Shown in pieces: positions 18,019 through 63,876 of a DNA stretch of 64,000 bases. This DNA is from Tetracentron sinense (taxonomy: Eukaryota > Streptophyta > Magnoliopsida > Trochodendrales > Trochodendraceae), in assembly GCA_015143295.1 (NCBI GenBank), contig CM026565.1, positions 11,840,041 to 11,904,040 of the forward strand, written 5' to 3'. The position numbers and the translations under genes are program-made. Positions within the stretch are counted from its first letter, which is position 1. Each line of letters starts with the position of its first letter. The notes under the pieces are model-generated. The model worked only from the letters and a program-made list of their open reading frames with translations, was not told the origin of the DNA and did no database searches.

Positions 18019-19480
18019 TTAATATAACTCCAGGTATTTCGCTTTGACTTCGGCTTCACGTGCCCATGTGGCCTCTTCCTAAGCATGATGTTGCCACTGA
18101 ACGAGCACTAATGAAATAGTCTTGTTGCGAAGCACTTGATCTCTACGGTCCAATATATGAACCGGCTTTTCAATCAAAGTGAGATCCTCTCGGATTTCCA
18201 ACGGTTCCAAGTCTATGACATGCGAAGGATCCGCAATGTACTTCTGAAGAATAGATACATGGAAAACGTTGTGAACTGCGGCCATGTGAGGTGGAAGAGC
18301 TACTCTGTAAGCAACTTGACCAACTCGTGTGATAATCTCAAAGGGTCTAACGTAACGAGGACTAAGCTTGCCTCTCTTGCCAAATCTCATGATCTCCTTG
18401 CTAGGAGATACCTTCACAAAGACTTGATCCCCTACTTGGAATTCCAAGTCCCTACGGCGAGTGTCAACATAGCTTTTCTGACGATCTTAGGCAGTTTTCA
18501 ACCGATCCCGGATGATCTTAACTATATTTTGCGGTTTGCTTGATCAACTCCGGACCAAGTACTTTGGATGCTCGCCTGATAGCTATTGTTATAGGAAAAT
18601 TCAACCAAAGGCACGTGCTCTTCCCAACTGCCCTTGAAATCCAACATACAAGCTCGAAGCATGTCTTCGATGACTTGGTTCACCCTCTCGGTTTGTCCAT
18701 CCATTTGTGGATGAAATGCGGTGCTGAAGTCAAGTCGGGAACCCATGGCATCCTGAAAACTCTTCCAGAACCTGGACGTGAATCTCGGATCCCGATCTGA
18801 CACAATACTAACTGACACCCCATGTAGCCTAACCACTTCCTTGATGTACAGAGCGGCCAACTGGCTAGAATTGAAGGTGGTTCGATAAGGCAAGAAATGC
18901 ACGGACTTTGTCAAGCGATCCACTACTACCTATATCGCATCTGAGCCCCTTGCCGTCTTTTGTAAGCCAACTATGAAATCCATGGATATGTTCTCCCATT
19001 TCCACTCGGGAATAGGAAGAGACTGCAATAGACCGGCGGGTCGCATGTGTTCTGCTTTCACCTGTTGGCACACCAAGCACCGTGCCACATATTCCGCAAC
19101 ATCCCTCTTCATATTCCGTCACCAAAAGTGACTCTTAAGGTTCTGGTACATCTTTGTACCCCCAGGATGCACTGTGTACTTCAAACGATGTGCTTCATCC
19201 ATGATCTCTCGTCGAAGATCTGCATTGGCCGGAACACACAGCCTTCCTTTAAACGTAATAGCACCTCGACTAGTGAGAGAAAAGTCTTTACTACCCTTGG
19301 CAATTTCCTTGTCCCGATAAGCCAATAATTCAGCATCCGTGGCTTGGTATTCTTGGATCAAATCTATAATATATGGCCGAACCGTGACATTTGCCAAAAC
19401 AGGACCGCGAATTGTATCATTCACACTAATGTCCAGATTTGCCAAATCCTCCAATAATCTCCATTCTTGCACCAACATGT
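18019..19480 (-). pseudogene. pol: Chromovirus C integrase and chromodomain (broken)
   Basis: The minus-strand reading shows the HHCC zinc region (H-x-LKYTVH near 19185, C-LVC near 19075), the catalytic core ('MDFIVGLQK' near 18960, 'IVSDRDPRFTS' near 18800, 'QTERVNQ' near 18690, giving the D, D and E), the GPF/GPY-like region ('RGKLSPRYVRPFEI' near 18350) and a chromodomain segment ('ILDRRDQVLRN...EEATWAREAEVKAKY', ending 18019). Stops at 19119, 18930 and 18079 and a frameshift near 18540 inactivate it. The chromodomain normally directs insertion to chromatin marks. Confidence 0.9.
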
Positions 19481-20905
19481 GTGCTAGTAACCCCAGAGCT
19501 CTTCTACTCAAGGCGTCTGCTACTACGTTCGCTTTTCCCGGGTCGTATTGGATGGTGCAGTCATAGTCTTTCAAAAATTCCATCCAACTAGATTCAGCTC
19601 CTTTTGGGAAAAGAGATACTTGAGACTCTTGTGATCCATATACACATAGAACTCCACCCCATAAACATAATGGCACCAAATCTTGAGTGCAAACACGACC
19701 GCGGCAAGTTCCAAGTCATGCGTGGGGTAATTCTTTTCATGCTCCTTCAATTGCCTTGATGCATAGGCAATGAACTTCTTGTGTCGGATGAGCACGCAAC
19801 CAAGTCCCACGTGCGAGGCATCATTTTACACCTCATACCCGCCATGTCTAGATGGCACTGTAAGGATGGGGGCCGTGGTAAGCCTCTTTTTCAGTTCCAT
19901 GAAACTGATCTCACACTTATCACTCCATACAAATTTCGCATTCTTCCTTGTCAAATAAGTGAGCGGTGTCGCAAGGCTGGAGAAACCCTCTACGAATCTC
20001 CTGTAGTAGCCTGCCAACCCAAGGAAACTACGTATCTCTGTGACACTTTTGGGCTTCGTCCAACTCATGACTGCCTCTATCTTCTTCGGATCCACTGATA
20101 TGCCTTCCGCGGATACAATGTGGCCTAAGAATGCCACCTCTTCCAACCAAAACTCACACTTGTTAAGTTTGGCGTATAGCTTGTGCTCTCTCAGCATTCC
20201 CAAAGCAAGACGAAGGTCTTGCATGTGATCTTCCAGTGTCTGGGAGTACACCAAGATATCGTCGACAAACACGATCATGTATCGATCTAGATATGGCTGG
20301 AACACCTGATTCATCAAATCCATAAAGGCTGCCAGGGCGTTCATGAGACCAAAAGGCATCACCAAGAACTCATAGTGTCCGTATCGAGTCCTGAAAGCAG
20401 TTTTGGGCACATCCTCGGCCTTCATCTTCAATTGGTGATAACCCGAGCGAAGATCGATCTTTGAGAAAAATCTCGCTCCTTTCAACTGATCGAACAAGTC
20501 ATCAATTCTAGGTAATGGATACCTATTCTTTATAGTGACTTTGTTCAATTGCCGGTAATCGACACACATTCGCATCGAGCCATCCTTCTTCTTAACAAAT
20601 AACACCGGGGTACCCCACGGTGAGACACTTGGTTGAATGAAACCAAGGCCTTACAATTCCTCCAACTGAGTCTTCAACTCTTTGAGTTCAATCAGGGCCA
20701 TTCTATACGGAGCCCGAAAGATGGGAGCTATGCCTGGAGCAAGCTCGATCACAAACTCAATCTCCCTATCTGGAGGCAACCCTGACAACTCCTCTGAAAA
20801 TACATCCAGGAATTCACTCACGACCGGGATAGTCGAAGAGTCCTTTGCCTCGGGGTTTGCTAAGCTTAGTGCCGCAAAGTGAGCAATATCTTTATTCCTC
20901 ATCCC
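19481..20905 (-). pseudogene. pol: Chromovirus C reverse transcriptase and RNase H (broken)
   Basis: Strong RT motifs on the minus strand: '[20 protein letters not shown]' (about 20600), '[11 protein letters not shown]', '[11 protein letters not shown]', the catalytic '[12 protein letters not shown]' (about 20265) and '[13 protein letters not shown]'. RNase H follows ('[19 protein letters not shown]', '[14 protein letters not shown]', 'GKANVVADALSR'). The RT frame has single stops at 20651 and 19826, and a frameshift near 19600. The change of frame between protease and RT falls at a run of six G near 20905, so one slippage indel would explain it. Confidence 0.92.
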
Positions 20906-21259
20906 CCCGGAAATGAAATGGCTTCCCTTTTACTGGCTTGAAGAGTACCATCTTCTCAAAGCAAGCCACATGCCCATGATGTGCTGCTAACCAATCCATC
21001 CCCAAGATAATGTCAAAGTCCTGGAATCCGAGGACGATGAGGTCGATTGCCAACTCATGGCTTCCCACTTGAACCACACTGTTTCTACACACTTTATCCG
21101 CCAATACTATCTTGCTGAGAGGAGTCGAAATGGCCAACTCCGGTTTCAACTGGCTAGGGTCCACAGAAAAGCCTTCTGAAAAAATCGGCGATACGAATGA
21201 ATGAGTAGACCTTGTGTCGATTAATACTCGAGCCAAACATTCATTGACTAGTAAGGTTC
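20906..21259 (-). pseudogene. pol: Chromovirus C protease (exon 2 start; active site altered)
   Basis: Starting exactly at 21259, after the intron, the frame reads 'TLLVNECLARVLIDTRSTHS', the retropepsin active-site region. The catalytic DTG is DTR here, which should abolish protease activity. It continues with 'IDLIVLGFQDFDIILGMDWL', the conserved second half of the gypsy protease. The frame is continuous with gag only if the 143-nt intron is removed. Confidence 0.88.
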
Positions 21260-21402
21260 CTTAAATTTTAGCTAGCTAAGTCAATCCATGCATCAACAAC
21301 GTATACATATAGGTATTTATATATAATATGCCATATACGTACACAAAGAATAATACATAACAATTCAATTTACGGGTAATTAAATAAATTACAACTGCGT
21401 AC
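21260..21402 (-). other. Putative 143-nt GT-AG intron inside the chromovirus C gag-pol frame
   Basis: On the minus strand the gag frame ends 'GTA GTG CAA G' at 21403, followed by GTACGCAG (donor) and, 143 nt later, ATTTAAG (acceptor), then 'GA ACC TTA CTA GTC'. Removing it joins codon G|GA (phase 1) and gives V-V-Q-G-T-L-L-V, the continuous protease leader typical of gypsy elements. Length 143 is not a multiple of three, so the frames join only by removal. Unspliced RNA reaches a stop (TAA, 21389-21391) after four codons. The segment is very AT-rich, as plant introns are. A candidate branch site TTGAC lies ~25 nt before the acceptor. Confidence 0.75.
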
Positions 21403-22675
21403 CTTGCACTACATTGTCAGATGCAAGTGCATCACCCTCTGTCAAGGCAAAAACTCGCCCCTGATTCGCCTGGCAAGGTGGAGGTGTAGGCCGTGCAGGC
21501 TGGAAGGACGCCTAGTATGATCCTGCTGGACGAGCTGGGAGCCTAATCCTCTGTGACTGGCCTGGCAGATGCCTCGTCGGACAATCCCTGATCATGTGAC
21601 CCTGGCGACCACAATGGAAACATCCACTCGATGCCTTTCGACAATCTCCTACCGGGTGCCTTCTGCCACAAGACGTGCAAATCTTATATGTGTAAGTCGG
21701 AGGGATCGGAGGTGGAGCATGCCTCGCTACCTGAGGTGCAATGGGCCGTGGGGCAGGAAGAGCCTGAGGTCGTGGCGCCTGAGGCGCATACTGCCGTGGA
21801 GCTAGAGGCGCATAAGCTGTCCTCAGCGGTGGTGCTGGCCATGCATACTGTGGTGGTGTTGGCCATGCGTACTGATAAGGGCCGGTACGAGCCCACCTCT
21901 CTGGAGGTGCTGAACTACTGGCTTGGCCTCTCCCCAATTCCCTCTTCTTGGACACGGTCTCTGAATTGGCCTCAACCAACAAGGCTTTATCCACTACTTC
22001 GGCGTAAGTGGCGTGCCTGAAGACCGAGACTCTCTCCATAATAACATCTTTGAGCCCTTGCTCAAACCTTCTTACCTTCATCACCTCGGTAGCGATCATA
22101 TGAGTCGCAAAGCATGACAGCTCTGAGAACTTGGCCTCATATTGCGCCACCGACATCGAACCTTGTTCCAGGTTGATGAATTCTCTCTCTTTCTTTTCCC
22201 GAGCTCCAACTGGGAAATACTTCTTGTAGAAGGTGTCCTCGAACTCCTCCCAAGTCTAGGGTTGACCTTGCATAGTCAACTCTTGAGTCCTCAAGGCGGA
22301 CAACCACCAATGGTGTGCCTCACCCTCGAGCATGAAAATTGCCCATGCTACTCTATCCTCCTCTGAAGGCGAGAGGACCTCAAAGATCTTCTCCAACTGG
22401 AGGATCCAAGCCTCCGCGGCAAGAGGGTCCACACTCCCATGGAATGGTGGAGGCCTCAATCTCCTGAATGCCTCAACCCCAGCTGGACGATGTACTGGAG
22501 CAGCAAGCGGTGGAGTAGGTGTTGCAGACGATGGAGTAGCCTGCTTAGCCGCCAGTAAGGCTAAAGTCTCTGCAATAGAGCCGAGAACCTGAGAGAGGTC
22601 CGGCTACTCACCCTCATCTCGAGAAGAAGATGAAGCCCTAATGTGTGGTCCGCGACCCCGTGTGCCCCTCCTCAT
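21403..22675 (-). pseudogene. gag: Chromovirus C gag (three nonsense codons)
   Basis: Starts at the ATG at 22673-22675 (M-R-R-G-T). One frame runs to 21403, interrupted only by stops at 22604, 22256 and 21512. Features in order: 'SIAETLALLA', 'GVEAFRRLRPPPFHG' and 'AEAWILQLEKIFEVL' of the gag core, 'RRFEQGLKDVI', a long Pro/Ala/Tyr-rich linker, a CX2C-like segment 'CTSCGRRHPVGDC' and a CCHC knuckle 'CFHCGRQGHMIRDC' near 21580-21625. It feeds into the protease by the putative splice. Confidence 0.9.
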
Positions 22676-23007
22676 GGCTACTGTCCTGAGATCAATAACA
22701 CCACATGAGTCTAACTTGGAACCAAAATTCATCATACTTTCATTTCACACTAATTCAAGTAGTACTATTGATATAGTATTAGTATATATTGCATCATACC
22801 CATCGGTGTAGACATAAGAGACTTAGTGTTCTAGCGTTTCTAGACAAGCACTTGGTTGGGACAACCATTTTGGACTAAGACTAAAATTTAGTCTCACACT
22901 TGGAATCATGACTCTCTTCCGACTTCCTTCCTAACTTGCTTCCTAACATATGTTCTCTTCAAGCCGTGGTACCAGATTCTAAGTGACCCTAGAGACCTAA
23001 AGCCTAG

Positions 23008-23019
23008 GCTCTGATACCA
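23008..23019 (-). other. Primer binding site of chromovirus C
   Basis: The minus strand reads TGGTATCAGAGC, an exact initiator-Met tRNA primer site, five bases from the LTR edge at 23025. Confidence 0.92.
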
Positions 23020-23024
23020 CTTCT

Positions 23025-24755
23025 TGTCGCGACCCGAAACCCACCCTAGGAGTTAGAGTGAATCTTGGACGACTAATCATGACTTACATGACTTGCATGA
23101 TAAACCATCCTGCAAAAACCCACAAGGCATATACAATAGAGGACATGATTAGCGGAAACATCACTAACATGGTACAGCAGAAGACTAACAACCTCTATGT
23201 ATATATAAATATATGATTTAAGTTTAATACAAAAAGGAATCGCCAAAAGAAAGTGCGGACATGCCCGCCAAAATACATGGATATCTCTCTCTCAACTCAC
23301 CCACAACTATGCACTCAGAATCTCCTACCACCTAATAGTAACCCTTGGCCAGAGGTTCCTCCAGAGGTTCTTCGACGTACTCCTCCACCCAAGGGCTCAG
23401 AGCACAGACATCAAATGGAGTGGTATCTCCCTCAGTACCTGCCAACATAAGAAGTACGGCTGAGCATGGAATTCTCAACGGGTACCAAGTACTAACCAAC
23501 AGTCATAGCAACACCATAGTAGTATAGGAAGCAGGAAGCAGTTCACTTATATGAAGCAGGAACAATTAACATCATGAAAAGGAAATAAAGCAATTTATAA
23601 TCATGCTTACATTTCATAAAAATCGATAAAACCCTTGAAAACATCGTGCACTTGACTTAACTGAAATTACCCTTTTCGTGATTTAAAACTTGTCTATCGT
23701 GTCATGCGTGTCATGCCATGCGTGTCATGCTTGTATCATGCTTGGTTGCTCGAAAAATAAACTACTTGTGAGGGAAGGGAGACCCTTCTTCCTAAATGCC
23801 CATGTCATGTCATGCTTGCTTGGAAAGTAAACTACTTGTGAGGGAAGGGAGACCCTTCTTCCCTAATGCCCATGATAGTCTTGTCTTGCCAAAGCGAAGT
23901 GAAACATATCATAGGATATGTCCCACCTCTAAGTCTCGTTCTTAAAAATACCGATAAAACATGTCATGCATGCCGTACTCGTGGGACCGTGTACAATTTA
24001 GTATGACAATTGTATAGAGAACATTTCAATTGATCAATAATTAAATCAAACCAATAAGCATTTAATCTATCAAGAAGTTCACACATACATTTTCTAAAAT
24101 AAAGCAGTCATCTTCTTCAATGAGGCATTTCATCAAACACTTGGCTGCATGCGATCGATCGCCACACATTATTTGCGATCGAATCGCAGGTCCTTGCGAT
24201 CGATCGCACCTGGATGCGATCTATTCGCATATGAACCCGAACCTTTCTGGTCTGATTTCCCCCTGCATGCGATCGATCGTACACTCTTGCGATCGATCGC
24301 AGATCCCTACGATCTATCGCACCTGGGGATCCATCTATCGATTAGACCCCGAGAGTTTGGGACCCATTTCGCTGCATGCGATCGATCGAGCAACCCCTTC
24401 GATTTTGTTGTTTTTCTCCTATTTTCCACACTTTGGTAATTTGGCCATAACTTTCAACTCGTTTGTTCGGATTTTGACGATGTAACTTGCGTTGGATTCG
24501 TCTTTCGACGGGGACATTCTGAAATTTCAAAATTTATAACTTCTACTTTATTTATTGACTAAATTACCCCTGAAGTCGGAGATAGTAACGGGTTTAGTAA
24601 CTGGGTTTTCGATATATTGACTCGGAAGTACTAGCTGTGTAAAACATTTAGAGGTGATTCAAAATTTCTCATTGCATTAGGAAAGGAAGATTACAAAGGG
24701 CTTCATGCCTTGGCCACAGATCCCAATTACATGGAAAAAAGGAGGGGGCTCTACA
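23025..24755 (-). repeat. 5' LTR of chromovirus C (1731 bp, internal deletion)
   Basis: Begins TGTCGCGACCCG and ends GGGGGCTCTACA. It matches 15659-17922 closely but lacks a 531-bp segment; the deletion joins 'catcaaacacttgg' directly to the first palindrome unit at 24150. The lost segment is where the core promoter/leader of the LTR should lie, so this 5' LTR probably cannot drive transcription. The palindrome array persists at 24150-24392, with several units damaged. Confidence 0.9.
24150..24392 (-). promoter_or_regulatory. Palindrome array in the 5' LTR of chromovirus C
   Basis: Same TGCGATCGATCGCA-type array as at 17299-17559, with about nine units, several carrying 1-bp insertions or losses. 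Confidence 0.75.
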
Positions 24756-33410: not shown

Positions 33411-33830
33411 CTAGATAAAATCTTTTCCATAGATACAAGTTCGCAACCTGATCTTTGATAAACTCATGGACGAACCTATACAGGCCAGGGATGGACATAC
33501 ATCTGCCCCTAAGAGCTTTAGTCCAAAGTCAACGTGCGGCTTCTCCATGAGAGAGACGAAAATTTTCGCAAAACATGGAAAGCTTGGAACCAACGGCTTC
33601 AGGGTAATACATGGTTCAGCAAAGACTTGCAAATCAACCACCTGAACGGTTGCTTTCAACCCAAATGCTTTAACAGCAACAATGACATTAGGATTTCCTG
33701 CCCATTTCAAGGATGGTTCCATAATCAGCTCCTTCTCATCAGTAACATAGACTTTCATACCTTGAAAAGTTGGTGGTAGGGACCCTAACGTCAGTGCTTC
33801 AAATTCAACAGACTCAATTTTATATTTTGG

Positions 33831-34178
33831 TGTGTGTGTGTGTGTTTGCGTGGGTGGTGTGAGTATTCCCTTGTCTTTGCCTTCAGTCATTGCCTTGTGG
33901 TATGATTGAGTTTACCAAAAAAACCAGAACAGTGTTTAGTCCCACATCGGGTACCTACCCGAGCATGTTGTCCCATATAAGTTCCTTGGCGCCTCAAACG
34001 GTTGGTACCGGTTTTGAGGAGCTCTAGGGTGAAGCTTACATGGGCTGCATGTGTGTGGTGTGTGTGTGAGTTTGCATGTGGTGTGTGTGTGTGTGTTTGC
34101 TTGGGTGGTGTGAGTATTCCCTTGTCTTTGCCTTCAGTCATTGCCTTGTGGTGTGATTGAGTTTACCAAAAAAAAAAA
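33831..34178 (+). mobile_element. Two-unit poly(A) retroposon with 11-bp target duplication
   Basis: Inserted in the synaptotagmin coding piece between flanking copies of TTATATTTTGG (33820-33830) and TTATATATTGG (34179-34189), one mismatch. It begins with a TG run and ends in A11. An approximately 90-bp segment ('gtgtttgc-tgggtggtgtga' through 'gattgagtttacca') occurs twice, first ending in A7 (33917-33923), then in A11. Between the units is 'GTCCCACATCG' (33939-33949), the upstream sequence element of plant snRNA genes, and TATAA (33976-33980). Target duplication plus A-tail indicate LINE-mediated insertion of a dimeric or read-through RNA. Confidence 0.75.
33939..33980 (+). promoter_or_regulatory. 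snRNA-type promoter: USE plus TATA
   Basis: GTCCCACATCG matches the plant USE consensus RTCCCACATCG exactly; TATAA follows after 26 bp, nearer the Pol III than the Pol II spacing known for plant snRNA genes. However, TTTT lies at 34012-34015, just past the expected start, which would stop Pol III early. The motif also occurs in non-snRNA plant repeats, so activity is unproven. Confidence 0.5.
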
Positions 34179-36011: not shown

Positions 36012-38380
36012 TGTAACGCCCCAAAATACCCCCTAGGAGTTTAGGGATATTTTAGGTGTCACACTGCGTACTTATCAAACCATCCTGTAATGCACAAGAT
36101 AAAATACAGTACTAACAACGATAATCAGAGCGCGGAAGCTAACATATATGCGGAAGCGTAAACGAATTTTCATTTCTTCTATTGATCCAAAATAGTATTC
36201 CAAGTTAACATAAATACAAGACATGTCTAAGTCTAAGGTGGACAGGCCCACCCATCAAAATATCAAAATACACAAGACCCTCTCATACTCTCCCCTCAAC
36301 AGTAGTCGAGGTATGGCCACACATCGAGGTCTCGGTCCGCCTGAGACTGTAATGGAATAGCCGGCTCTCTCTCCTCTATATACTCTTCCTCGACCCAAGG
36401 CTCCGGGTCGAGGGCTCCCTCAGTACCTGCCGACATGAAAGTACGGCTGAGCATGGAATACTCAGCGAGTACAAGCTACTAGCAAACCATAACAAAAATA
36501 AAACACACAATAGTAATATCATACAAGCAGTAATAGAAACATCACAAAAGGAACAGTATAAGGCATGATGCAATACAAGCATCCTGACATGCGTACATGA
36601 ATGCAAAAACGCCGATAAAACTTATGCTTGAAAACCCATGTCATGTCTCGGTATGCCTCGTGGAAATCATGTATGCATGCATGTGTGAATGCATGATCAT
36701 CATCTTGTAAACTTTCATCTTGTAACTTGTGAGCCAGAGGCTAGCACCCGAATCTCCCTGGGCTGCCAACCTCCTTGATATGCAATGCACGTGTGAGCCA
36801 GAGGTTAGTACCCGAATGTCCTTGGGCTACCAACCTCCTTGATATGCAATGTTTGGTTTTCTTGTGAGCCAGAGGCTAGCACCCGAATCTCCCTGGGCTA
36901 CCAACCTCCTTGACAATAGGTGATTTTTATTACTTGTTTAGTTTTCTTGTGAGCCAGAGGTTAGCACCCAAATTTTCCCTGGGCTACCAACCTCCTTGAC
37001 GTGCAATATTTTCTTGTTGTTTATTATATGCACATGCTCTTGAAATATCGGTTCATGCTATCATGCGTGCTCGTGTACGTGTCAATAGTGACAATCATGA
37101 TAATGAGGATAACCAAGATATGGCATTACAATTCAATTCATGATATGAACATAGGTAACTTAAGTAGTTTGCATAACATTTGATCAATTTATCATTTATA
37201 GGAACGCATGCATAAAACCCATTTCTATATTCTTCATTGAGATCATTTATTCATAGTTTAGGTATTTTGTCAAACACTTTCATACATTATTCCTTAGTAG
37301 TTTATCTCCTTTTTAATGCATATTTTCCATTCAATCACACAATGGTAAGTTTGTTATTTGTACAATGCCCATCCTCCATTTTCCAATCCACAACCCACAC
37401 ATCATACATCACACATTCGGCATCCAATCGCTGTATCCAACCTCCATCCAAGCATCCCTACCCTTTCTTTATCTTGTTTATCTTTATTATAGATGACACA
37501 TTTTGCAAGGAATAAAACATACTAACAAGAATCATATTTCCTAAGGAAAACCTAGATTTATTGCTAGGGTAAGTTAGTAGGGTGTACTAACCTTAGATCA
37601 AGGCTTGATCTTGAAGAAACCTTGAAATAAAAGCTCTATTTGGAAGGAGGAAGCCTTTGCTTGAAGGGGACTTGAGTTGGTGAAGAAACCTCTTTCAAAA
37701 ACGCCGTAGGATCGCTGCCCTAGCTTGGAGAATGAGTCCCCACACGAGCTTGAGCCTTGAACTTGAAGCAACTCGAGTTGGGGTGAGCTAGGGTTCTTAA
37801 ACCCCCCTTGATTTCCTTCTCAAAACCAAACCCTAGGTTAGAGCTTCCTTCTCTTCTCTCTCTATCTCTCAAAATCTCTCAAATGTTGTAAATGATCCCT
37901 AAGGCTCGGGCAAGCCTTAAGAAGAAAGGGTTTAACCCCCAAAAGACGAAAAAGCCCTTAATGAAATTTCTGCAAAATGCGAAGACCGAGCGATTGGTGT
38001 TTAAGACCGATCGATCGGTTGCCTACCGAGCGATCGGTTGATTGACCGAGATCTCGGTCAAAAATCAACTCTCTGGAAAATTTTCCCATACAAAAGTTTC
38101 GACCGTGCGATAGCTACCGATCGATCGGTTTTGGACCGAACGATCGCTGACTGGACCGAGCGATCGGTGCTCAGTATGTCTAGACTGTTTTGACCATATC
38201 TTTTGACTCGCTCGTCGGATTTCGACGATTCAACTTGCGTTGGGTTCGTCTTTTGAAAACGCACATTTCTGACATTTCGGAATTTCCGATTTCTCTCTTA
38301 GTTATTAATTAGACTATGAGGAAAGCCAATTAGCTATGAAAACAATATTCATTAAGTACAGAAAAATCCGGGGTGCTACA
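36012..38380 (-). repeat. Solo gypsy LTR H (2369 bp) with 5-bp target duplication
   Basis: Plus-strand reading starts TGTAACGCCCC and ends CGGGGTGCTACA, flanked by CTCTT on both sides (36007-36011 and 38381-38385). The other LTR of element D has the uninterrupted site with a single CTCTT (44916-44920). It contains four 'gagccagaggctagcaccc' subrepeats (36726-36995), the GGCTGAG hairpin (36445-36467) and a palindrome array (37985-38168). No internal gypsy sequence is present, so it is a true solo LTR formed by LTR-LTR recombination. Confidence 0.95.
37985..38168 (-). promoter_or_regulatory. Palindrome array of solo LTR H, 8 units
   Basis: Units such as ACCGATCGATCGGT and ACCGAGCGATCGGT, four either side of the spacer (minus strand TTTGTATGG...AGAGAG). 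Same layout as LTR E and copia-3. Confidence 0.8.
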
Positions 38381-44447: not shown

Positions 44448-45601
44448 TGAGTAATAAAGATCACTATACAAGACAAAGGAGAAAAGCTTGCTTAGTTGGT
44501 GAAATCTATGGGAGTCTGTGTTAGAGACCAGGGTTCAAAACCCTCTGCCATCATTTTCTCTTCTTTTTCTCTTTTATTTCTCAAAACCCTAATCTCTCTC
44601 TCCTAATCCTATTCGTCCAATCTTAATCATCTTAGCCATCCATCCTTACTTTTCAAAACCCTAGTTGGTTCAAAAACCCTAATCCCATCTCTTTTTCCTA
44701 AACTTAGCCACCACCTTCTAGCCTAAATCTTAGGCACCCATATCACCAAACTCTAATCCTAGCCACCCATCTCATTTTCTTTCAAAACCCTAATCCCCTT
44801 CCATTTCTTACATTCTTTCCTAATTTCTCTCCCATCCTAACAACTCACTTTTCAAAAGTGCAACCCTAATTTCTCATTTTCTCTACGAAATCCTAGCCAC
44901 CCATCCCATCACACCCTCTTTCTCTCCGAACCCTAACTATGATCCTATATAACCTACACCATCTCTTCCTCTAAAAAAGGGTTCCTTCCCCCCTAACTTC
45001 TCTTCTCATCTCTCTCTCATTTCTCAATCCATTTTTTTTTTCTCTCTCTCTCTCACCCCACTCTCTATCATCTAACCTCTTCTCTCTCACCTACGAATCT
45101 TTGGTTCTCTCTCTATCTCTCAGTATATCTCCATCTTTGGTGACTCTTGCAAAGGAAGGAGAAAAAGAAAGAAAGTGAAGAAGAAAGCTCTCCATCTCAC
45201 CATTTTTACAGCTTTACTTTCGAATGTTCTTGCAATTTCTTTGTCTTCAAGTGTTGTAAGTACTTTTTAATTTAATGAATCATTTTAAATAAATGTTAGT
45301 TTTTTTTTCTCATGTTTAATTATGTTTTATGCTTGTTTCATTGATAGTGGTAGACCTTAATAATTTCTCAAACAAAAGTATTTTTAAAAAATCCCATTAT
45401 TCCATCATTCTCACCACTCCACCATTTTAATCTTTTATTTATTTTATTATTTTTATTTTCTTTATTGCACTAACTAACTAACCCCGAGTGAGGATTCGAC
45501 ATCCGACACAAGCCCTATACCATTCTCATATGTAGGATTCAGATTAAATTAAAGTATTGAAATAGGGTGATTCGTTTCAACGACCGAAAAACCCACTTTC
45601 A
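44448..45601 (+). repeat. 3' LTR of element D (uninterrupted)
   Basis: Starts TGAGTAATAAAGATCAC, ends CCCACTTTCA. Carries the pre-insertion site of solo LTR H at 44916-44920. Four exact AAACCCTA motifs lie at 44584, 44656, 44674 and 44785, followed by CT-rich sequence. Confidence 0.9.
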
Positions 45602-46780: not shown

Positions 46781-47060
46781 CTACGATTGGTCGTAGGTTT
46801 CCTACGATCAATCGTAGCATCTTTACGATCGGTCGTAAGTTTCTACAATCAATCGTAAACATTACAGAGAGTTTGCCCATTTTTGGAAGTCTTATGATCG
46901 ATTGTAGGTTTTCTGCGATCGATCGTAACTCACCTACGATTGTTCGTAATATGTCCAGTAAGTTTGCCCAGTTTTGGGGTTCTATGATCGATTGTAAGTT
47001 TTCTACGATTGATCATAGATCACCTACGATCGTTCGTAAGGTCTATACGATCGTTTGTAA
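46781..47060 (-). promoter_or_regulatory. Palindrome array (TACGATCGATCGTA type), 11 units
   Basis: Eleven roughly 16-bp units such as CTACGATCAATCGTAG and CTGCGATCGATCGTAA. Core GATCGATC with TAC/GTA arms. Some spacer sequences are themselves repeated ('gtttgcccattttgg' type near 46873 and 46964). Confidence 0.8.
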
Positions 47061-47365
47061 ATCTGACAGAAGTTTTCCAAATTTTTTCATTTTTGGTATT
47101 TTTGGCCATAACTTTTGACTCGTTTATCAGATTTTGATGATTCAACTTGCGTTGGACTTATCATTCGAAGAGGAACAATTTTTGCATTTTAGAATTTTCT
47201 AATTATTCTTTATTCATGGACTAAATTGTCACTAAAGTTGACTGGTCTAGAAATTGGGTTTCAGCAGCCTGGATTTTGAATAGGTCCGACCTTGGAAATC
47301 CAACTTCTAACTTAATAAAATGACTTTAAGGCTTTAATACATGTCAAAATTTCCGTGGTGCTACA

Positions 47366-53671: not shown

Positions 53672-53856
53672 ACCGATCGCTCGGTGTTGAGACCGATCGA
53701 TCGGTGGCCTACCGAGCGATCGGTGGCTATCGACTGGACAAAAAATTTGTATGGGGTATTTTTCCAGAGAGATGATTTTCAACCGCTCGATCGGTTATGA
53801 GCACCGATCGATCCGTTTTGGACCGAGCGATCTGTAATGTGCACCGATCGATTGGT
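53672..53856 (+). promoter_or_regulatory. Palindrome array of copia-3 LTR, 8 units
   Basis: Units such as ACCGATCGCTCGGT, ACCGATCGATCGGT and ACCGAGCGATCGGT in a 4+4 layout. The spacer begins TTTGTATGG and ends AGAGAG. This is the same array, layout and spacer as in the gypsy LTRs at 4470, 37985 and 62237, but in a copia element. Confidence 0.85.
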
Positions 53857-53900: not shown

Positions 53901-53911
53901 CCTATATAAAC
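53901..53911 (+). promoter_or_regulatory. TATA box of copia-3 5' LTR
   Basis: CCTATATAAAC about 45 bp downstream of the palindrome array. Confidence 0.7.
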
Positions 53912-54592: not shown

Positions 54593-54604
54593 TGGTATCA
54601 GAGC
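54593..54604 (+). other. Primer binding site of copia-3
   Basis: TGGTATCAGAGC, exact initiator-Met primer site. Confidence 0.92.
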
Positions 54605-54657
54605 TTGTTCACTGATAAGGCTAATCCCTTAAGTGTGATCCTGTATTATCCGTGATC

Positions 54658-55974
54658 ATGAGTACTCTAAGAGAAGGTGGATCCGTCTCTCGTCCCCCAC
54701 TTTTTGATGGAAATAATTATGCATACTGGAAAGCTAGAATGAGAGCCTTTCTCAAATCTATTGACGAGAGAATTTGGATGTCTATACAGAATGGGTGGAC
54801 TACGTCCATAAAAACTGTAGGTGATTTGACTGTCGTCAAATATTATAATGAATGGACCAGAGAAGAACTTGAGTCAAGTGGATGGAACACTAAAGGTCTC
54901 AATGCTATCTTTACTGCAGTCACTGCTGAGGAATTCAGACGAATTTCTTCATGTGAAACAGCAAAGGAGGCTTGGGACATTCTTGAAATTACCCATGAGG
55001 GTACTACCACTGTTAAAATCTCAAAACTCCAAATGTTAACCACCAAATTTGAACATTTAAACATGGATGACAATGACACTTTTGATGAATTCTATGCAAA
55101 ACTTAGTGACATTGTCAACGCTAGTTTCAATTTAGGTGAGAAAATATCTGAGTCCAAAATAGTTAGAAAAGTCCTTAGATCTCTCCCTGAGAGATTTCAA
55201 CCCAAAGTCACTGCAATCGAAGAGAGTAAAAATGTTGACTCTCTGAAGATTGAAGAATTGGTTGGTTCACTCCAAACCTATGAACTCAATCTCCGTCCAT
55301 CCAAGAAGAACAAATCTTTAGCCTTGAAATGCATCAAGGAATCTTTGGATGAGGATGACACTGATGGAGATATGAATGAGGAAGAAATGGCTCTCTTCGT
55401 TAAAAAATTTCGAAAATTTTTTAGAACGAAAAAGAGGTTCAATCCCAAACAGGGAGGAAAATGTTTTGAGAAGTCAAAGTCTAAGCCTTGGGAAAACAAG
55501 AAAAATTCCAAGAATGGCGACAAGAAATCCCAAGGTGTTCAATGTTATGAATGCCATAGCTTCGGTCATATTTCACCTAACTGCCCTAACAAGAAGAAGA
55601 GTAAGGGCAAAGTGATGAATGCCTGTTGGGATGACAGTGATTCCGAGAATGAAGAATCGGACAATTCCTCTTCAAGTGAAGATACTGGAAATCATACAGC
55701 TTTCACTGTTTCCCTTTCTGGGATTCTTGAGACTACCTCTACGGTTGATGAAAAGGATAGAAGTGATGAGAGTGTTCATACTGAGTCTAGTGATGATATA
55801 CAGAAGAGTCAAACTGACTCTGAAAGTGATGAAGATTTGAAAACAACTTATGATAAGTTATATGCTGAAAGTTTGAAGCTGACTAAATCAAAAATCTCCT
55901 TGAGCAAAAAACTCAAAATCATTCAAAATGAAAGAGATACTTGTAAACTAGTAGCAGAAGAGAAAGTGCTCTAG
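54658..55974 (+). CDS. gag: Copia-3 gag (Sirevirus type), ends at a frameshift
   Basis: Nucleocapsid/capsid precursor of about 438 residues up to a frame-ending stop. Start chosen at the first ATG after the primer site (54658). It has the N-terminal 'PPLFDGNNYAYWKARMRAFL' motif, UBN2-type gag region ('KEAWDILEITHEGTTTVK', 'KISKLQMLTTKFE'), 'VRKVLRSLPERF', a basic linker, the CCHC knuckle CYECHSFGHISPNC (residues ~297-310) and an acidic Ser-rich stretch leading to a coiled-coil-like tail. The natural frame continues after a one-base shift near 55965-55975; this looks like a mutation since the reading then goes straight on in the 55983 frame. Confidence 0.92.
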   Translation: MSTLREGGSVSRPPLFDGNNYAYWKARMRAFLKSIDERIWMSIQNGWTTSIKTVGDLTVVKYYNEWTREELESSGWNTKGLNAIFTAVTAEEFRRISSCETAKEAWDILEITHEGTTTVKISKLQMLTTKFEHLNMDDNDTFDEFYAKLSDIVNASFNLGEKISESKIVRKVLRSLPERFQPKVTAIEESKNVDSLKIEELVGSLQTYELNLRPSKKNKSLALKCIKESLDEDDTDGDMNEEEMALFVKKFRKFFRTKKRFNPKQGGKCFEKSKSKPWENKKNSKNGDKKSQGVQCYECHSFGHISPNCPNKKKSKGKVMNACWDDSDSENEESDNSSSSEDTGNHTAFTVSLSGILETTSTVDEKDRSDESVHTESSDDIQKSQTDSESDEDLKTTYDKLYAESLKLTKSKISLSKKLKIIQNERDTCKLVAEEKVL

Positions 55975-55982
55975 TTAGTCAG

Positions 55983-57599
55983 TTGGAAAATGAAAAAGAA
56001 GCATTTGTTATGAAAGTTCAATGTCTTTTGGAAGAGAATGTCTCATTGACTAATGTGGTCAGAAAATTAGAAGTTGAAAGAGACACTTCCATGAAAGAAA
56101 TTGAAGAGTTAAGAACTCTGCAAATGGAGCTGGAAACTTTTAAAGACTCTCTTGTTGATAAGGTGAAATTTCTTGAAAAAGAACATCAAATTACCCTTAA
56201 AGACAAGACTGACTTGATTCAGAAGGTCTATACTTTTGAAAAAGAAGTAAGAATGTTTGGTAACACTAGCTGTCTAGATGAATTAGTTAGAAAGTATGGG
56301 TCAAATTCGAGTAGATCTGGGATAGGACATGCTGACACACCAACTGGTCCTTTAGCTGTTGGTACAATGGCTAGTGCAGTGTTTGAGCCAATACATTCTG
56401 ATCCTAAAGTGAATCTACCTTCTACATCAAGTACTAAGGCTTATACAAATTTTGTAAAGCCTAGAAATACAGCTCCTAGAGTGAATGCTATGAGGAATCA
56501 AATTCCTTTTAGAAGAAATCCTCCTCCTCTCCAAAGATTCATACCCACATGTCACTTTTGTGGTGTGAGAGGTCACATTCGACCAAATTGTAATGCTTTT
56601 AGGAGAGCTCCTCAAAATAGTTCATGGAACCAAAATCAAAGTCAAGGGACTCTTCAAAGGCAGATTCAGGTTCTGGCTGAAAAGTCTAGAATATTGAGCG
56701 AAGATGTTAATAGAATTGCTCAAATCTCTATGACAAGAACTGGTCAATTTATTCCAAATGATTATTCAAGAGGAAAGAATTTGACTAATCAAAAAGCTAG
56801 AACTGAACAAAATAGGAAAAGGTCAAGGAGGACAAATAGGAAAAAGGTTTCTAATACACAGTTTAATGATCAAAGATCTAAACAAGGTTTAAAGACTGTG
56901 TATGTAAGAAAGGATGACCTTAAGTGCTTCGTCATTCACACTGCCTTGAAAGCCCAAAACATAGAAATGTGGTACTTCGATAGTGGGTGTTCTCGGCATA
57001 TGACATGTAACAAGTCCTTATTTACTCAATTTGAGGACTGTCCAGATGGGACTGTTACTTTTGGTGATGGAAGCAAGTCTTTAGTAAAGGGGAAGGGTAT
57101 CATCGATTCACCAGGCATACCAAAATTGAAAGATGCCTTGTTTGTTGAAGGACTGAAAGCTAATTTAATTAGCATAAGTCAACTATGTGATGATAACCAT
57201 GCTGTGCACTTTACCCAAAATAAATGCTTAGTCATTAATGGTAAAGGTAAGTGTGTTCTAGAAGGGTTAAGAACCACTGACAATTGCTACGGCTTAATTC
57301 CCAGTCCTAATCCCTCAAATGTCTGTTATAAGACTAAAATTGAGGAGGTTGATTTGTGGCACCGAAGACTAGGTCACATGAACTTCAAAGACCTATGTAA
57401 AATTTCTAAGCAAGAGCTTGTAAGAGGTGTTCCCAAACTAGGAAAGCCTTCTACTGCTGTGTGTGGGCCATGCCAAATTGGTAAACAAATTAGAACCCCA
57501 CATAAGAAGACTTCAAGTATTGCTACTTCATATCCACTGGAATTAATTCATATGGATCAAATGGGTCCTACAAGAACTGAAAGCCTAGGTGGAAAGTGA
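55983..57599 (+). CDS. pol: Copia-3 gag tail, second knuckle, protease, integrase N-terminus
   Basis: Continues the polyprotein in a shifted frame, with a heptad-like coiled coil (residues ~1-90), a second CCHC knuckle CHFCGVRGHIRPNC (about 56550), a basic region, the protease active site 'YFDSGCSRHMT' (about 56970) and the integrase zinc motif 'LWHRRLGHMN...CGPCQIGKQ' (57355-57485). It ends in a single TGA at 57597-57599, where related copia elements keep a sense codon ('[17 protein letters not shown]' across the stop). Two knuckles in one gag and the coiled coil are Sirevirus features. Confidence 0.9.
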   Translation: MENEKEAFVMKVQCLLEENVSLTNVVRKLEVERDTSMKEIEELRTLQMELETFKDSLVDKVKFLEKEHQITLKDKTDLIQKVYTFEKEVRMFGNTSCLDELVRKYGSNSSRSGIGHADTPTGPLAVGTMASAVFEPIHSDPKVNLPSTSSTKAYTNFVKPRNTAPRVNAMRNQIPFRRNPPPLQRFIPTCHFCGVRGHIRPNCNAFRRAPQNSSWNQNQSQGTLQRQIQVLAEKSRILSEDVNRIAQISMTRTGQFIPNDYSRGKNLTNQKARTEQNRKRSRRTNRKKVSNTQFNDQRSKQGLKTVYVRKDDLKCFVIHTALKAQNIEMWYFDSGCSRHMTCNKSLFTQFEDCPDGTVTFGDGSKSLVKGKGIIDSPGIPKLKDALFVEGLKANLISISQLCDDNHAVHFTQNKCLVINGKGKCVLEGLRTTDNCYGLIPSPNPSNVCYKTKIEEVDLWHRRLGHMNFKDLCKISKQELVRGVPKLGKPSTAVCGPCQIGKQIRTPHKKTSSIATSYPLELIHMDQMGPTRTESLGGK

Positions 57600-57611
57600 T
57601 ACATCCTAGTC

Positions 57612-59972
57612 ATGGTTGATGATTTCTCAAGAATGTCATGGGTGGCATTTATAAGAGAGAAATCCGATGCTTTTGACAATTTCAAAAGTATTTGCTTGAA
57701 AATTCAAAATGAGAAAAGATGCCCAATCACTCGAATTCGAAGTGATCATGGAAAGGAGTTTGAAAACTCTAAGTACAACGACTTTTGTGATGAGTCGGGT
57801 ATCAAACATGAATTTTCTGCACCTATTACACCTCAGCAGAATGGTGTAGTAGAGAGGAAGAACAGGGTTCTCCAAGAGATGGCTAGAGTTATGCTTCATA
57901 GCAACAATCTAGCTTCTCATTTCTGGGCTGAGGCAGTTAACACTGCTTGCTATATAGTTAATAGAGTTTTTGTAAGACCTGGAACAAGGAAAACTCCCTA
58001 TGAGTTGTGGAATAACAAGAAATCCAGTGTCAAGTACTTTCGAGAATTCGGAAGTAAATGCTATATCCTTAAGGATAGAGAGCAACTGGGCAAATTTGAA
58101 TCCCGGAGTGATGAAGGGATATTTCTTGGATATTCCACCAACAGTAGAGCTTATCGAGTGTATAACTTGAGAACCTCTACGATTATGGAGTCCATAAATG
58201 TAGTTGTGGATGACTCCGGTGTTGAAAATGTGCAACTTGAGGATGATGAAAGTGCTGAAAATGAAAATGTTGAAACTGTTTCAACTCCACTTATAAATAA
58301 GCAATCATCTCCATCAAAACCTACACATTCTAGGGTCATGAGTCCTCACACCCCCACTGACATAATTGGTGATCTTGAAAGTGGAGTGAGAACGAGGAAA
58401 CAAATTGAAAATGAAGTTAGCTACATTTGCTATACTTCATCTTTTGAACCCAAGAATGTAGCTGAAGCTCTTGCAGATGATAATTGGATAAATGCAATGC
58501 AAGAAGAGTTACTTCAGTTTACTAGGAATGATGTTTGGTATTTAGTACCTAGGCCTAACAATACAAATGTGATAGGTACCAAATGGATTTTCAAGAACAA
58601 ATCTGATGAAAAAGGTACTATCATAAGAAATAAGGCTAGGTTAGTTGCACAAGGATACACCCAAATTGAAGGTATTGACTTCGATGAAACCTTTGCTCCT
58701 GTAGCCAGGCTAGAATCAATAAGAATTCTTCTAGTTGTGGCTTGCCATATGAAATTCAAACTTTTTCAAATGGATGTTAAGAGTGCCTTTCTGAATGGCA
58801 TTCTACAGGAGGAAGTCTATGTGGAACAACCAAAAGGGTTTGAAGATCCACATCACCTTGATCAAGTCTATCGGTTAAAAAGGGCTCTCTATGGTTTAAA
58901 ACAAGCTCCAAGAGCTTGGTATGAGAGACTGACTACTTATCTCTTGGAAAACGGATTTTCGAGATGGGGAGTAGACAGAACCCTTTTCATAAAGAATGTG
59001 AAAGGTGATATTGTCATCGCCCAGATATATGTTGATGACATAGTATTTGGTTCCACATTAGACTTACATGCTCTTTCATTTGCTGAACAAATGAAAAATG
59101 AATTTGAAATGAGCATGGTTGGTGAGCTAAGTTTCTTCCTTGGTCTTCAGATCAAGCAATTGGATTCTGGGATCTCAGTATCTCAAATCAAATATGCTAA
59201 AAATCTAGTGAAGAAATTTGGCATGAGCTCTGCTAAGCATGTAAGGACTCCTATGAGTTCTACTACAAAACTTAGTAAAGATGCTACAGGCAAAGATGTT
59301 GATCAAACTTCTTATAGAAGCATGATTGGTAGTTTACTCTACCTAACTGCTACTAGACCTGACATGGCCTTTAGTGTTGGTGCATGTGCCCGCTATCAAG
59401 CGAGCCTAAAAGAGTCTCACTTGCTTGCAGTTAAACGTATCATTCGATATGTGAGTGGAACTCTATCATTTGGCCTCTTGTATTCTTTTGATACAAATGC
59501 CACGATAGTTGGATATTCCGATGCCGATTGGGCTGGAAATGCTGATGATAGGAAGAGCACCTCTGGAGGATGTTTCTATATTGGAAACTGCTTAGTTGCT
59601 TGGCTTAGCAAAAAGCAGAATTCAATTTCATTCTCCACTGCAGAAGCTGAGTACATAGCAGCTGGCAGTTGTTGCACTCAACTTCTGTGGATGAAGCAGA
59701 TGTTGAATGATTACGGGATTGAACAAAGCACTATGACTGTGTATTGTGATAATTCAAGTGCTATCAATATTTCCAAAAATCCAGTTCAACATTCTCGCAC
59801 AAAGCACATAGACATTAGACATCACTTCATCCGTGATCTTGTTGAGCAAAAGATTGTGTCTATAGAGTATGTCCAAACAGAGAATCAATTTGCGGACATT
59901 CTTACAAAACCCTTAGATTCCCTTAGGTTTGAACTCCTTAGGAAATCCATAGGTTTGTGCGGAGTTGAGTAA
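57612..59972 (+). CDS. pol: Copia-3 integrase core, reverse transcriptase and RNase H
   Basis: Open for 786 residues in the same frame as the preceding segment. Integrase core: 'VDDFSRMSW', '[10 protein letters not shown]', '[11 protein letters not shown]'. RT: '[10 protein letters not shown]', '[20 protein letters not shown]', '[12 protein letters not shown]', catalytic '[11 protein letters not shown]' (about 59030). RNase H: '[19 protein letters not shown]', '[13 protein letters not shown]', 'CDNSSAI', and the C-terminal '[10 protein letters not shown]'. No internal damage, in contrast to the other elements here; with only one frameshift and one stop upstream this is the youngest-looking coding region in the window. 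Confidence 0.95.
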
Positions 59973-61144
59973 AGATGTACTTGTTTCATAGCCTATGTGT
60001 TCTTCATGTTCTATTTGTGTCATAGAGCTATTTTTTTCTTTAATTAATAAAAATCCAAAAACATTCAAAAAATTGAAAAATATTGCAAAAAATAATGTGT
60101 TTGTATGACCTTCTTTCCTATCATTTTGCTTAAAGTTATTTCCTTGAAATCATATTTGAACATATAATGCAAGGATAAATATTTCATAGCATTGGATAAA
60201 TTAGGATAGGTCAACTGTTGGTTTGATCTTGTGATTGAATTTGGTCAGGCTAACTAATCTCAGTTAGAGTTGAGTAAACAAAGATGTTATATGTTGCACA
60301 TGCACTCTGACTGATTCTTTAGATGGTATTAGTTCCTATTTAAAGGTTTTGATATTATACCATATGGTTCCCTAGATTAATCAAATCTAGTATAACCAAT
60401 GTAATAAAAAATTCCATAAGGTGAGCCCCCTAGTTATAAAAATTATTGACATGGAGAGGACTACCTGTGAGTTTGTGTGATAGCTACTAGTGAATGCAAA
60501 CAGTGAGTAATGGCTACCTAGACAAACAGTAGGTATCTATATGGATTGCTAGTGTGAAAGCCCCCACTGTCATTAGAAAGAGCTACCTTCTCACTTGTGT
60601 GAAAGTCACCAATGTGCTAAAAACTATATATGTGTACTCCAAAAAGAATTTTCACAATGAGTACAATTTGACTGAAAAAGAAATGAAATAAATTTGTTAG
60701 TCAAATTTGGGGTAAAAATTGCTCATCATATAAGTATGGATGTTTATTGGGTTTAAAACTAGTTTTTGAAAATTTTAGAGTCCCATTTTTGCTATAATGT
60801 CAAAATCTAGCTTAAGGAAGGAAACCAATTCAAAGAGTCAGGTAATGAATTTTGATTTCACACTAACATTACTTCTAATTGTTTCTTGACTCTGATTGTG
60901 AATTTGATGCAAATACCAAAATTAATCACCTTTGAAAATCAATTATTGTTTACATAATCCTTATTTATGACTATATTTGATATATAAATTCTTGGGTGAT
61001 TATTCTTTATGATTTTAATGAAATCAATTATTGCAAATTTTTTGGTGAATTGGTTATTTTGAGCTGAAAATGAGTTTTTAATGTACCATTGGTTGAGGGG
61101 GAGAAATGGTTGTAAATGTAAAATTTTTGAAAATTTTTCAGACC
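59973..61144 (+). other. Copia-3 post-pol non-coding region
   Basis: AT-rich. Contains A-rich 'aaaaatccaaaaacattc', 'gcactctgactgattctt' (60305) and diverged repeats around 'ggctacct...agtgtgaaag' (60475-60610), all with counterparts in copia-1 (25085, 25353, 25500-25640). The tract 'gagggggagaaatgg' at 61094 is polypurine-like. Conservation between two different copies suggests function, but the role is unknown. Confidence 0.6.
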
Positions 61145-61202
61145 ACCGATCGCTCGGTGTTAAAGACCGATCAATCGGTCTTTTGTGAACAGAGTTATAA
61201 AA
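61145..61202 (+). promoter_or_regulatory. Internal promoter of copia-3: palindromes plus TATA box
   Basis: ACCGATCGCTCGGT (61145-61158) and ACCGATCAATCGGT (61166-61179), then TATAAAA at 61196-61202 in 'gagttataaaaccctc'. A third unit (AGCGATCTCTCGGT, 61247-61260) lies downstream. The third ORF starts about 190 bp after the TATA box. These palindromes are the same type as in the LTR of copia-3. Confidence 0.65.
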
Positions 61203-61392
61203 CCCTCATTTCTATTTTTTCTGTTCACTTCTTCTCCGAACTCCAGAGCGATCTCTCGGTTACCTCTCCTCCAAATCCTTCCTACAGTCATTCCATTCAA
61301 CTCTAAGGGTTTCCCAAGCATCAAAAAGGTAAGCCTTGTACGTTTTCTTGCGTATAGGTTGAATTTCTCATCTAGGGCATCGTTGTTCATCC

Positions 61393-62236: not shown

Positions 62237-62448
62237 ACCGATCGCTCGGTCCAGTCAGCGATCGATCGGTCCATAACCAGTCAGCGATCGATCGGTCCAG
62301 TCAGCGATCGATCGGTAGCTATCGCACGGTCAGAAATTTTGTATGGGGAAATTTTCCAGAGAGTGAGTTTTTGACCGGTTGATCGGTCATAAACACCGAT
62401 CGCTCGGTAGGCAACCGATCGATCGGTCATAACCACCGATCGCTCGGT
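62237..62448 (+). promoter_or_regulatory. Palindrome array of LTR E, 9 units
   Basis: Units ACCGATCGCTCGGT, AGCGATCGATCGGT (three times), AGCTATCGCACGGT, then spacer TTTGTATGG...AGAGAG, then four more ACCG-type units. Layout 5+4. Perfect palindrome ACCGATCGATCGGT appears near 62414-62427. Confidence 0.85.
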
Positions 62449-63423
62449 CTTCGTGTTTTTCAGAATTTTCATTAAGGGATTTTTCGTCTTTTGGGGGTTA
62501 AACCCTTTCTCCTTAAGGCTTGCCCGAGCCTTAGGGCATCATTCACTATACTTAGAGAGATTTGGGAGATAAGAGAGAAGAGAAAAGGGTTTCCTAAACC
62601 TAGGTTGCTTTTGGAGAAGAAATCAAAGGGGTGAAGACCCTAGATCGTCCACAAGCACGTTTTCTTCAAGATTTCAACTCAAGCTCGGGTGGGGTGCATT
62701 CTCAAAGCTAGGGCAGCCCTCACTCACGTTTTTGAAAGGGATTTCTTCCCCAACTCAAGCTTCTTTCAAGCAGAGGCTTCATCTTTCAAGTTGGAGCTTC
62801 AATCAAGGTCCCTACCAAGGATCAAGCCTTGATTCAAGGTTAGTACACTCTACTAACTTTCTTTAGCAATAATCTAGTTTTCCCCTTTGACATTATGATG
62901 TTGGTCTTGTATCTTCCCTTACTTGAAATGTGCTATACTTCCTAAACCTAAACAAGATAAATGTGAATGTGGGGTTGTATGTATGAATGGTGGATGTAGA
63001 GGCGATTGGATGCCGTTGGACGTGGTGAAATGTGGGTATGGAAAATGGTGGAAGGGCACTCTATGAATAATGAACATACTTGGATGTTGTGTTGGAAATT
63101 GATGCGCTAAAAAGGGGAAATAAAACTACTAAAATGTTGCACACCGGATGTTTGATAATATGCCTAAACCAAGAATAAATGAAATTGATAAAGGAAATGG
63201 ATGTAAGCTTTATGTAATTATTCTTGTAAATGATGACTTGACCAAATGCCATGTTGATCACCTAAATGCTTACATGTTATACTATGAATTGAAACATGAT
63301 GCGATATCCCTCTTGTTACACGTGTCCCCATGATTGTCACTATTGGCACGCCCACGAGCACACATGCATGCATGAAACCGGGTTTTTCAAGATTGTATTA
63401 TACATGTTGAATCAAGAAATGGA

Positions 63424-63634
63424 ACAAGAACATGACAAGGAGGTTGGTAGCCCAAGGAAGGGTGCTAGCCTCTGGCTCACAAGAGAAATGGAACAAGAAC
63501 ATGACAAGAACATGACAAGGAGGTTGGTAGCCCAAGGAAGGGTGCTAGCCTCTGGCTCACAAGAGAAATGGAACAAGAACATGACAAGGAGGTTGGTAGC
63601 CTAAGGAAGGGTGCTAGCCTCTGGCTCACAAGTA
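63424..63634 (+). repeat. Three tandem LTR subrepeats in E
   Basis: 'gacaaggaggttggtagcc' then 'caaggaagggtgctagcctc' then 'tggctcacaag', three times, the reverse of the subrepeats in the minus-oriented LTRs. The second unit has a short extra 'gacaagaacat'. Confidence 0.85.
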
Positions 63635-63876
63635 TACAAGTCAAGAACAAATCAAGACATGAAATACAAGACAAGACACGACAAACATACATGATTTGAC
63701 CGAGACACGAAAAAGGTTTCCGAGACATGAGTTTTACCGAGGTTTTTGCATTCACACACGCATGTCAAGATATGGCTATGTATCTTATGCTTTCATTATT
63801 GCTTTAAATTAATATCTTGTATTGCTCACTGTTGTTATGCTTTCGCTATTGTTATGGTTAGCTAGTAGTTTGTACT

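Follow-up and report, generated by a model that had tools for sequence, protein, structure and literature searches.

A palindrome-array cassette with a common spacer in copia and gypsy LTRs of Tetracentron sinense

Described systems and the cassette in the window

To our knowledge, LTR promoters are generally assumed to evolve inside their own lineage. Palindromic RM arrays were described by Bousios 2010 (PMC2829016), in the sections of that paper available to us, as a Sirevirus-specific feature absent from classic copia elements. For gypsy elements, the accessible part of Cruz 2014 (PMC4029996) reported CpG islands in the 5' half of monocot Del (Tekay) LTRs, with no island found in the eudicot and the closest monocot groups. 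An LTR with a promoter module is also known from Cassandra, which carries a 5S promoter in its LTR (PMC10853983, in part); that module came from a host RNA gene, whereas the one described here is common to two retrotransposon superfamilies.

The window, the whole stretch of 64,000 nucleotides analysed here, contains copia-3, an element with copia-type RT and gag. As in the Sirevirus RM arrays (PMC2829016, available sections), its cassette consists of several CpG-rich palindromic units in the upper LTR half upstream of the TATA box, with units again upstream of env; palindromes upstream of TATA in Sirevirus LTRs, which the initial annotation had mentioned, are described there. The Vitis Sirevirus unit CGGTCGACCG given in the same sections is identical to the central part of the arms of GGTCGACC type found here. 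Unlike those arrays, the present one has a central directional spacer and is shared with gypsy elements, neither of which is mentioned in the sections available. On the gypsy side, the LTRs resemble those of Del elements (PMC4029996) in that their 5' half contains a CpG-rich block of variable length, although the available part of the Del account mentions no palindromes and no link to copia. A search of open-licence literature by titles and the beginnings of abstracts found no cassette common to copia and gypsy, which is not proof of absence, and a motif search of the literature returned a single bacterial paper, which is unrelated.

The spacer, TTTGTATGG-N11-AGAGAG, occurred six times in the window, always in the sense of its own element, and GC-rich 14-base near-palindromes numbered 80, whereas 20 dinucleotide shuffles contained 28 on average. 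All six palindrome arrays located by the initial annotation were recovered (Table 1), and the altered arms that it had noted in gypsy B and copia-1 were borne out. Its layout of four palindromes on either side of the spacer agreed with copia-3 downstream, whereas three good units and one decayed unit, TATCGACTGG, were found upstream. Two details were corrected: the arrays of gypsy B (9484-9676) and gypsy C (37985-38168) lie on the minus strand, and the gypsy LTR bearing the array at 4470 begins at 4207. Downstream of the copia-1 cassette, a copia-3-gag-like stretch was present at 13850.

Table 1 Features of the palindrome-array cassettes and their carriers in the window.
Feature	Position	Strand	Details
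Spacer copies (pattern search)	4545-4570; 9566-9591; 12861-12886; 38069-38094; 53746-53771; 62338-62363	+; -; +; -; +; +	
Gypsy A cassette	4470-4655	+	LTR start 4207; ACCGATCG arms
Gypsy B cassette	9484-9676	-	GGTCGACC-type arms; same spacer
Copia-1 cassette	12814-12976	+	GGTCGACC-type arms; divergent spacer of equal length
Gypsy C cassette	37985-38168	-	Within apparent solo LTR 36012-38380, CTCTT at either side
Copia-3 cassette	53672-53856	+	Units at 53672, 53692, 53711; 53782, 53803, 53822, 53843
Copia-3 cassette, middle	53728-53737; 53746-53771	+	Decayed unit; spacer
Gypsy D cassette	62237-62448	+	LTR start 62025; ACCGATCG arms; extra upstream units
Gypsy-1 3' LTR palindrome array	17299-17559	-	TGCGATCGATCGCA arms, without TTTGTATGG spacer
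Gypsy-1 5' LTR palindrome array	24150-24388	-	TGCGATCGATCGCA arms, without TTTGTATGG spacer
Other gypsy-type LTR end	46824-47290	-	TACGATCG-type palindromes; recognisable spacer absent
CTTGTGAGCCAGAGGCTAGCACCC-type tandem units	8446-8690; 11807-12175; 36719-37000; 63413-63680		
Copia-3 TATA box	53903-53910	+	About 45 bp past the last unit
Copia-3 primer-binding site	54593-54604	+	TGGTATCAGAGC; directly 3' of the 5' LTR
Copia-3 gag and pol	54625-59972	+	Three stop-to-stop frames; Retrotran_gag_2; RVT_2 243 bits
Two further units, then TTATAAAACCC	61145-61205	+	Upstream of the copia-3 env-like frame

Gypsy-1 (15659-24755, minus strand) has LTR starts at 24755 and 17922, with RT and gag in between. 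Because its LTR pair and the LTR at 46824-47038 have arrays and lack the spacer, array and spacer are separable. Several gypsy LTRs carried in their 3' half tandem units of about 65-80 bp with CTTGTGAGCCAGAGGCTAGCACCC or near variants, and units of this type were also seen shortly upstream of the copia-1 cassette. The surroundings of the apparent solo LTR (36012-38380, minus strand) were matched without the insert at 44451-45601. A piece of a plant synaptotagmin-like gene was found at 33411-33911 (minus strand), with up to 88% identity to named plants across two thirds of its length; its relatives contain an SMP-LTD domain.

Carriers of the cassette across the genome

The spacer pattern TTTGTATGGNNNNNNTTTCCAGAGAG matched 10,736 times (5369 and 5367 by strand) in the 1.161-Gb genome, in which the window lies at C15:11840041-11904040, and its reversed control gave 0 and 0 matches; this confirms the observation and extends it to the whole genome. 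The first 54 matches, which come from a single contig and are not a random sample, comprised 39 gypsy and 15 copia LTRs, with none unassigned. For fourteen of them (8 copia and 6 gypsy) the class came from pol, from RT or from comparing the LTRs unmasked. The cassette was masked for the other 40, which were classed by their flanks as 33 gypsy and 7 copia; in this flank search none of the 40 LTRs matched both superfamilies at E 1e-3, and none was left unclassified.

Ten same-strand spacer pairs, 9.6-12.6 kb apart, were chosen by spacing. All ten enclosed a pol 89-98% like that of copia-3 in the window and had the cassette at both ends, a both-LTR presence that is partly by construction, since pairs were chosen for spacers at both ends. 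The LTRs were 95.6-99.3% identical within nine of the pairs; those of L025 and L026 were just 87% alike, so these two are no true pair, and L025 contains a second spacer inside. Six further pairs were examined. Five of them, about 7.5 kb apart, enclosed a gypsy RT 81-90% like that of gypsy-1, which all five and the B-type gypsy L090 matched (RVT_1), and the sixth, L044-L046, was copia-3 at 94%. L064 with L096 was another cassette-bearing copia-3. As these pairs were picked by their spacers, their counts show which elements bear the cassette and not the share per family. A genome-wide search, as the initial annotation had proposed, found the cassette in elements of both superfamilies, as identified by pol or RT. 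A gypsy fragment confined to a single copia-3 copy, the reading on which its proposal would have fallen, is excluded by the ten copia-3 pairs with pol and a cassette at both ends; with L044-L046 and L064, two more copia-3 elements carry it.

Copia-3 is Sirevirus-like and bears most of the Sirevirus marks. A palindrome array stood upstream of a TATA box in 23 of 23 copia-3 LTRs, the TATA box lying at +137 to +175 when counted from the first base of the spacer. At 10 of the 11 3'-side copia-3 LTRs, the PPT octamer AGGGGGAG preceded the LTR by 10 bp, L026 being the one without it. Counting the terminal copy, the linker contained three PPT copies in L009, L013, L015 and L017 and two in L011; Sirevirus linkers have 3-5, on average four, according to the available sections of PMC2829016. 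An additional octamer was present inside or near pol in nine of the ten copia-3 stretches. Seven of these ten stretches extended into the part of the linker before env, and all seven, as well as the window, showed a unit pair upstream of the env-like frame, followed by TTATAAAACCC in six stretches and the window and by TCATAAAACCC in L011. The env-like frame itself had a sub-threshold Pfam match only. In a protein search, copia-3 pol was at most 66% identical to any of the 120 matches listed, which came from several plants. At 61110-61205 (plus strand), GAAAATTTTTCAGA is followed by two units and then by a TATA box, an arrangement similar to the right-hand half of the cassette in the LTR.

The LTRs of gypsy A-D in the window start with TGTAGCACCC, which differs by one base from the U3 att of Del elements, TGTAACACCC, the commonest Del LTR start in the part of PMC4029996 available. 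The integrase end of gypsy-1, the one element looked at in this respect, matched SH3_Tf2-1 and gave no Chromo match; its frame stops there. The initial annotation had termed these LTRs chromovirus-type. The LTR start and the Tf2-1 SH3 domain fit this term, which is likely to apply to the cassette-bearing gypsy elements, whereas a chromodomain was not detected in gypsy-1. The position upstream of the core promoter that the initial annotation had given for the module held for every one of the 23 copia-3 LTRs, whereas a TATA box was found in just 9 of 18 gypsy LTRs and the search gave none in the other nine.

Copia and gypsy cassettes compared

The unit starts of 23 copia-3 LTRs peaked at -74, -54, -35, +36, +56/57, +75/76 and +96/97 relative to the spacer, and those of 15 ACCG-type gypsy LTRs at -75/-74, -54, -35, +36, +56/57, +75/76 and +96/97; at the modes, the seven offsets of the two superfamilies agree within one base. 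The offset and symmetry counts did not include copia-1, L004, gypsy B, L002 and L005. The first unit, ACCGATCGCTCGGT, was the same in most LTRs of both superfamilies, and the number of units varied, so that the 5' and 3' LTRs of a single element could differ in it. Among 414 copia-gypsy pairs, the longest exact match within the cassette (-110 to +130) was 32 bases (copia L017 and gypsy L030), as compared with 10 and 13 bases in the two LTR flanks. The shared stretch takes in TATCGACTGG, the decayed unit without symmetry.

The ungapped identity between copia-3 and ACCG-type gypsy was 0.90 for the spacer. It was 0.69 for the left junction, where the ACCG-type gypsy LTRs reached 0.65 among themselves, and it fell to 0.28 and 0.30 in the next 100 bases on either side; ungapped flank identity within gypsy was also low (0.37 and 0.40). 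Gapped global comparison with free ends, run without the 5' LTR copies, gave a mean of 0.72 and a maximum of 0.82 for cross-superfamily cassettes versus 0.63 and 0.71 for shuffled sequences, and 0.64-0.66 for cross-superfamily flanks versus 0.75-0.76 for flanks within gypsy; the copia-gypsy contrast is smaller and less clear-cut here than in the ungapped comparison. In a tree of the 84-base cassette core, from which L055 and L071 were omitted, copia and gypsy lay at opposite sides of a weakly supported branch (43/14), and because of this lone weak branch the tree shows neither nesting nor repeated exchange. The cassette is present in both superfamilies, in one register and with this identity, between unrelated flanks.

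Chance and vertical descent are both very unlikely origins. Chance was rejected on the excess of near-palindromes, the lack of any match to the reversed control and the 32-base match, and old vertical descent because the flanks across superfamilies are near chance. The initial annotation had proposed either module transfer or convergent selection, and the data support this pair of readings. Convergence would mean that a host factor with fixed spacing made both superfamilies build array and spacer independently. Many Sireviruses do have palindromic arrays with different units upstream of TATA (PMC2829016, available sections), and both gypsy and copia include cassettes that combine arms of the GGTCGACC type with the core spacer. 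However, the match between the superfamilies covers a decayed unit and a symmetry-free junction, with up to 32 identical bases, the same first unit recurs in both, and all seven offsets coincide within one base. We consider convergence unlikely; transfer is favoured over it because of the matching offsets, the shared decayed unit, the stretches of up to 32 identical bases and the near-chance flanks.

Alternatively, an independent short repeat such as a satellite, a MITE or a host promoter might have entered the copia LTRs and the gypsy LTRs in separate insertions. The similarity is bounded by the outermost palindromes and the unit number changes freely, even between the LTRs of one element, which would fit this explanation; nevertheless, it is highly improbable, given that all of the first 54 matches lay in copia or gypsy LTRs, none being free-standing, and that the orientation relative to the element is identical in both superfamilies. 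A scan of viral contigs gave no match.

Module transfer, probably from gypsy to copia-3, fits best. The same-register copies in Sirevirus-like copia-3 and Del/Tekay-like gypsy would have arisen when the block, a putative modular U3 promoter cassette, moved between them in the same plant, possibly by recombination or template switching. We consider it probable that the block crossed between the superfamilies, most likely once and from gypsy into the ancestor of copia-3; a single transfer into that ancestor would be enough for the ACCG type. Three copia-3 cassettes had best scores of 145-159 bits against gypsy, compared with 67 bits for gypsy A and 75 bits for gypsy C against gypsy B, and these scores weakly suggest gypsy as the donor. 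If the transfer is real, this cassette, with its roughly ten thousand occurrences in LTRs of the two superfamilies, would show that regulatory modules are able to cross the copia-gypsy divide, and recombination between unrelated elements would become testable by sequence.

Cassettes with GGTCGACC-type arms and the core spacer were found on the gypsy side in gypsy B, L002 and L005, and on the copia side in copia-1, L004, L055 and L071. L071 has copia-3-like flanks (3' flank up to 0.81) and GGTCGACC arms in the cassette, which in gapped comparison with copia-3 reached 0.62-0.69, near the shuffled level (mean 0.63). Its best local score was to gypsy L002 (84 bits, versus 54 within its own superfamily) and its best global match was copia L004 (0.738); a gypsy RT lies upstream of it on the other strand. 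The L055 cassette scored 72.5 bits to gypsy B and L005 and 41 to copia in local comparison, with gypsy L005 as the best global match (0.753). In the flank search, L055 matched a copia-3 flank at 72.5 bits and had no gypsy match, and its 3' flank was 0.744 identical to copia-3 and 0.742 to one gypsy, against a shuffled maximum of 0.736, so that its assignment to copia is weak. No pol of their own superfamily was present in the stretches examined around L055, L071, L004 and L002 (downstream only for the last), and their class therefore reflects LTR similarity only. The copia-3 LTR L064, with copia-3 pol upstream, has a spacer exactly equal to the common gypsy form.

A second exchange is possible for the GGTCGACC type. 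Tentatively, Sirevirus and Tekay-like elements here might draw on a common pool of swappable U3 cassettes, in which two or more types, including those with ACCGATCG and with GGTCGACC arms, are each represented in both superfamilies and assort partly by arm type and not by carrier; exchange of whole cassettes would then give compatibility with a host factor.

Possible roles of the array

Palindromes of 14 bases placed about 20 bp apart around a directional 26-base element would form an upstream promoter cassette in U3. A spacing of about 20 bp corresponds to two helical turns. From known precedent, each palindrome would bind a dimeric host factor and the array would activate transcription; the unit pair and TATA box before the env-like frame would fit an internal promoter. 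The symmetry of the single units, their spacing and the presence of a further pair before a separate TATA box are consistent with predicted sites of a dimeric factor. Heat-shock elements, the W-box-like TTGACC beside the spacer and LBD-type CCG-N6-CGG sites would be candidates, none of which we claim. A single host factor would, if this is true, be a likely common control of two very large repeat families.

Inside the cassette, the observed/expected CpG ratio reached 1.72 for copia and 1.64 for gypsy; beside it, the ratios were 0.27 and 0.71, respectively. Between paired copia LTRs, CpG transitions numbered 14/205 inside the cassette versus 27/216 outside (p 0.07), and between paired gypsy LTRs 6/102 versus 13/95 (p 0.09); the sum, 20/307 versus 40/311, gave p 0.009, whereas the single superfamilies were not significant. 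The L025/L026 combination (cop8), with its 87% identical LTRs, was omitted from this count. Other differences between paired LTRs amounted to 0.9% inside versus 2.4% outside in copia and 2.8% versus 2.0% in gypsy. Protection of the cassette from methylation would be at most partial, because the other differences were also fewer inside in copia and were more frequent inside in gypsy.

Instead of providing DNA binding sites, the array might act as RNA, with hairpins in the U3 of the genomic RNA that serve in dimerisation or packaging or give rise to small RNAs. Strong folds were predicted for all seven ACCG-type cassettes tested (z -4.5 to -8.3), the nested arm-to-arm complementarity of copia-3 (0.90) exceeded its internal symmetry (0.85), and maize small RNAs map to Sirevirus palindrome clusters (Bousios 2016, as cited in the available part of PMC10760457). 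In gypsy, by contrast, nested complementarity is 0.82 and so no higher than internal symmetry (0.84), nested pairing at asymmetric positions is 0.48 (0.72 in copia-3), and gypsy B lacks a fold signal (z -0.1). Furthermore, units also lie directly upstream of the second TATA box before env. An RNA role in place of DNA binding thus appears improbable, although effects at the RNA level, for example through small RNAs, may occur. Weaker folds were predicted for copia-1 (z -3.5), L004 (-3.2) and L005 (-2.2).
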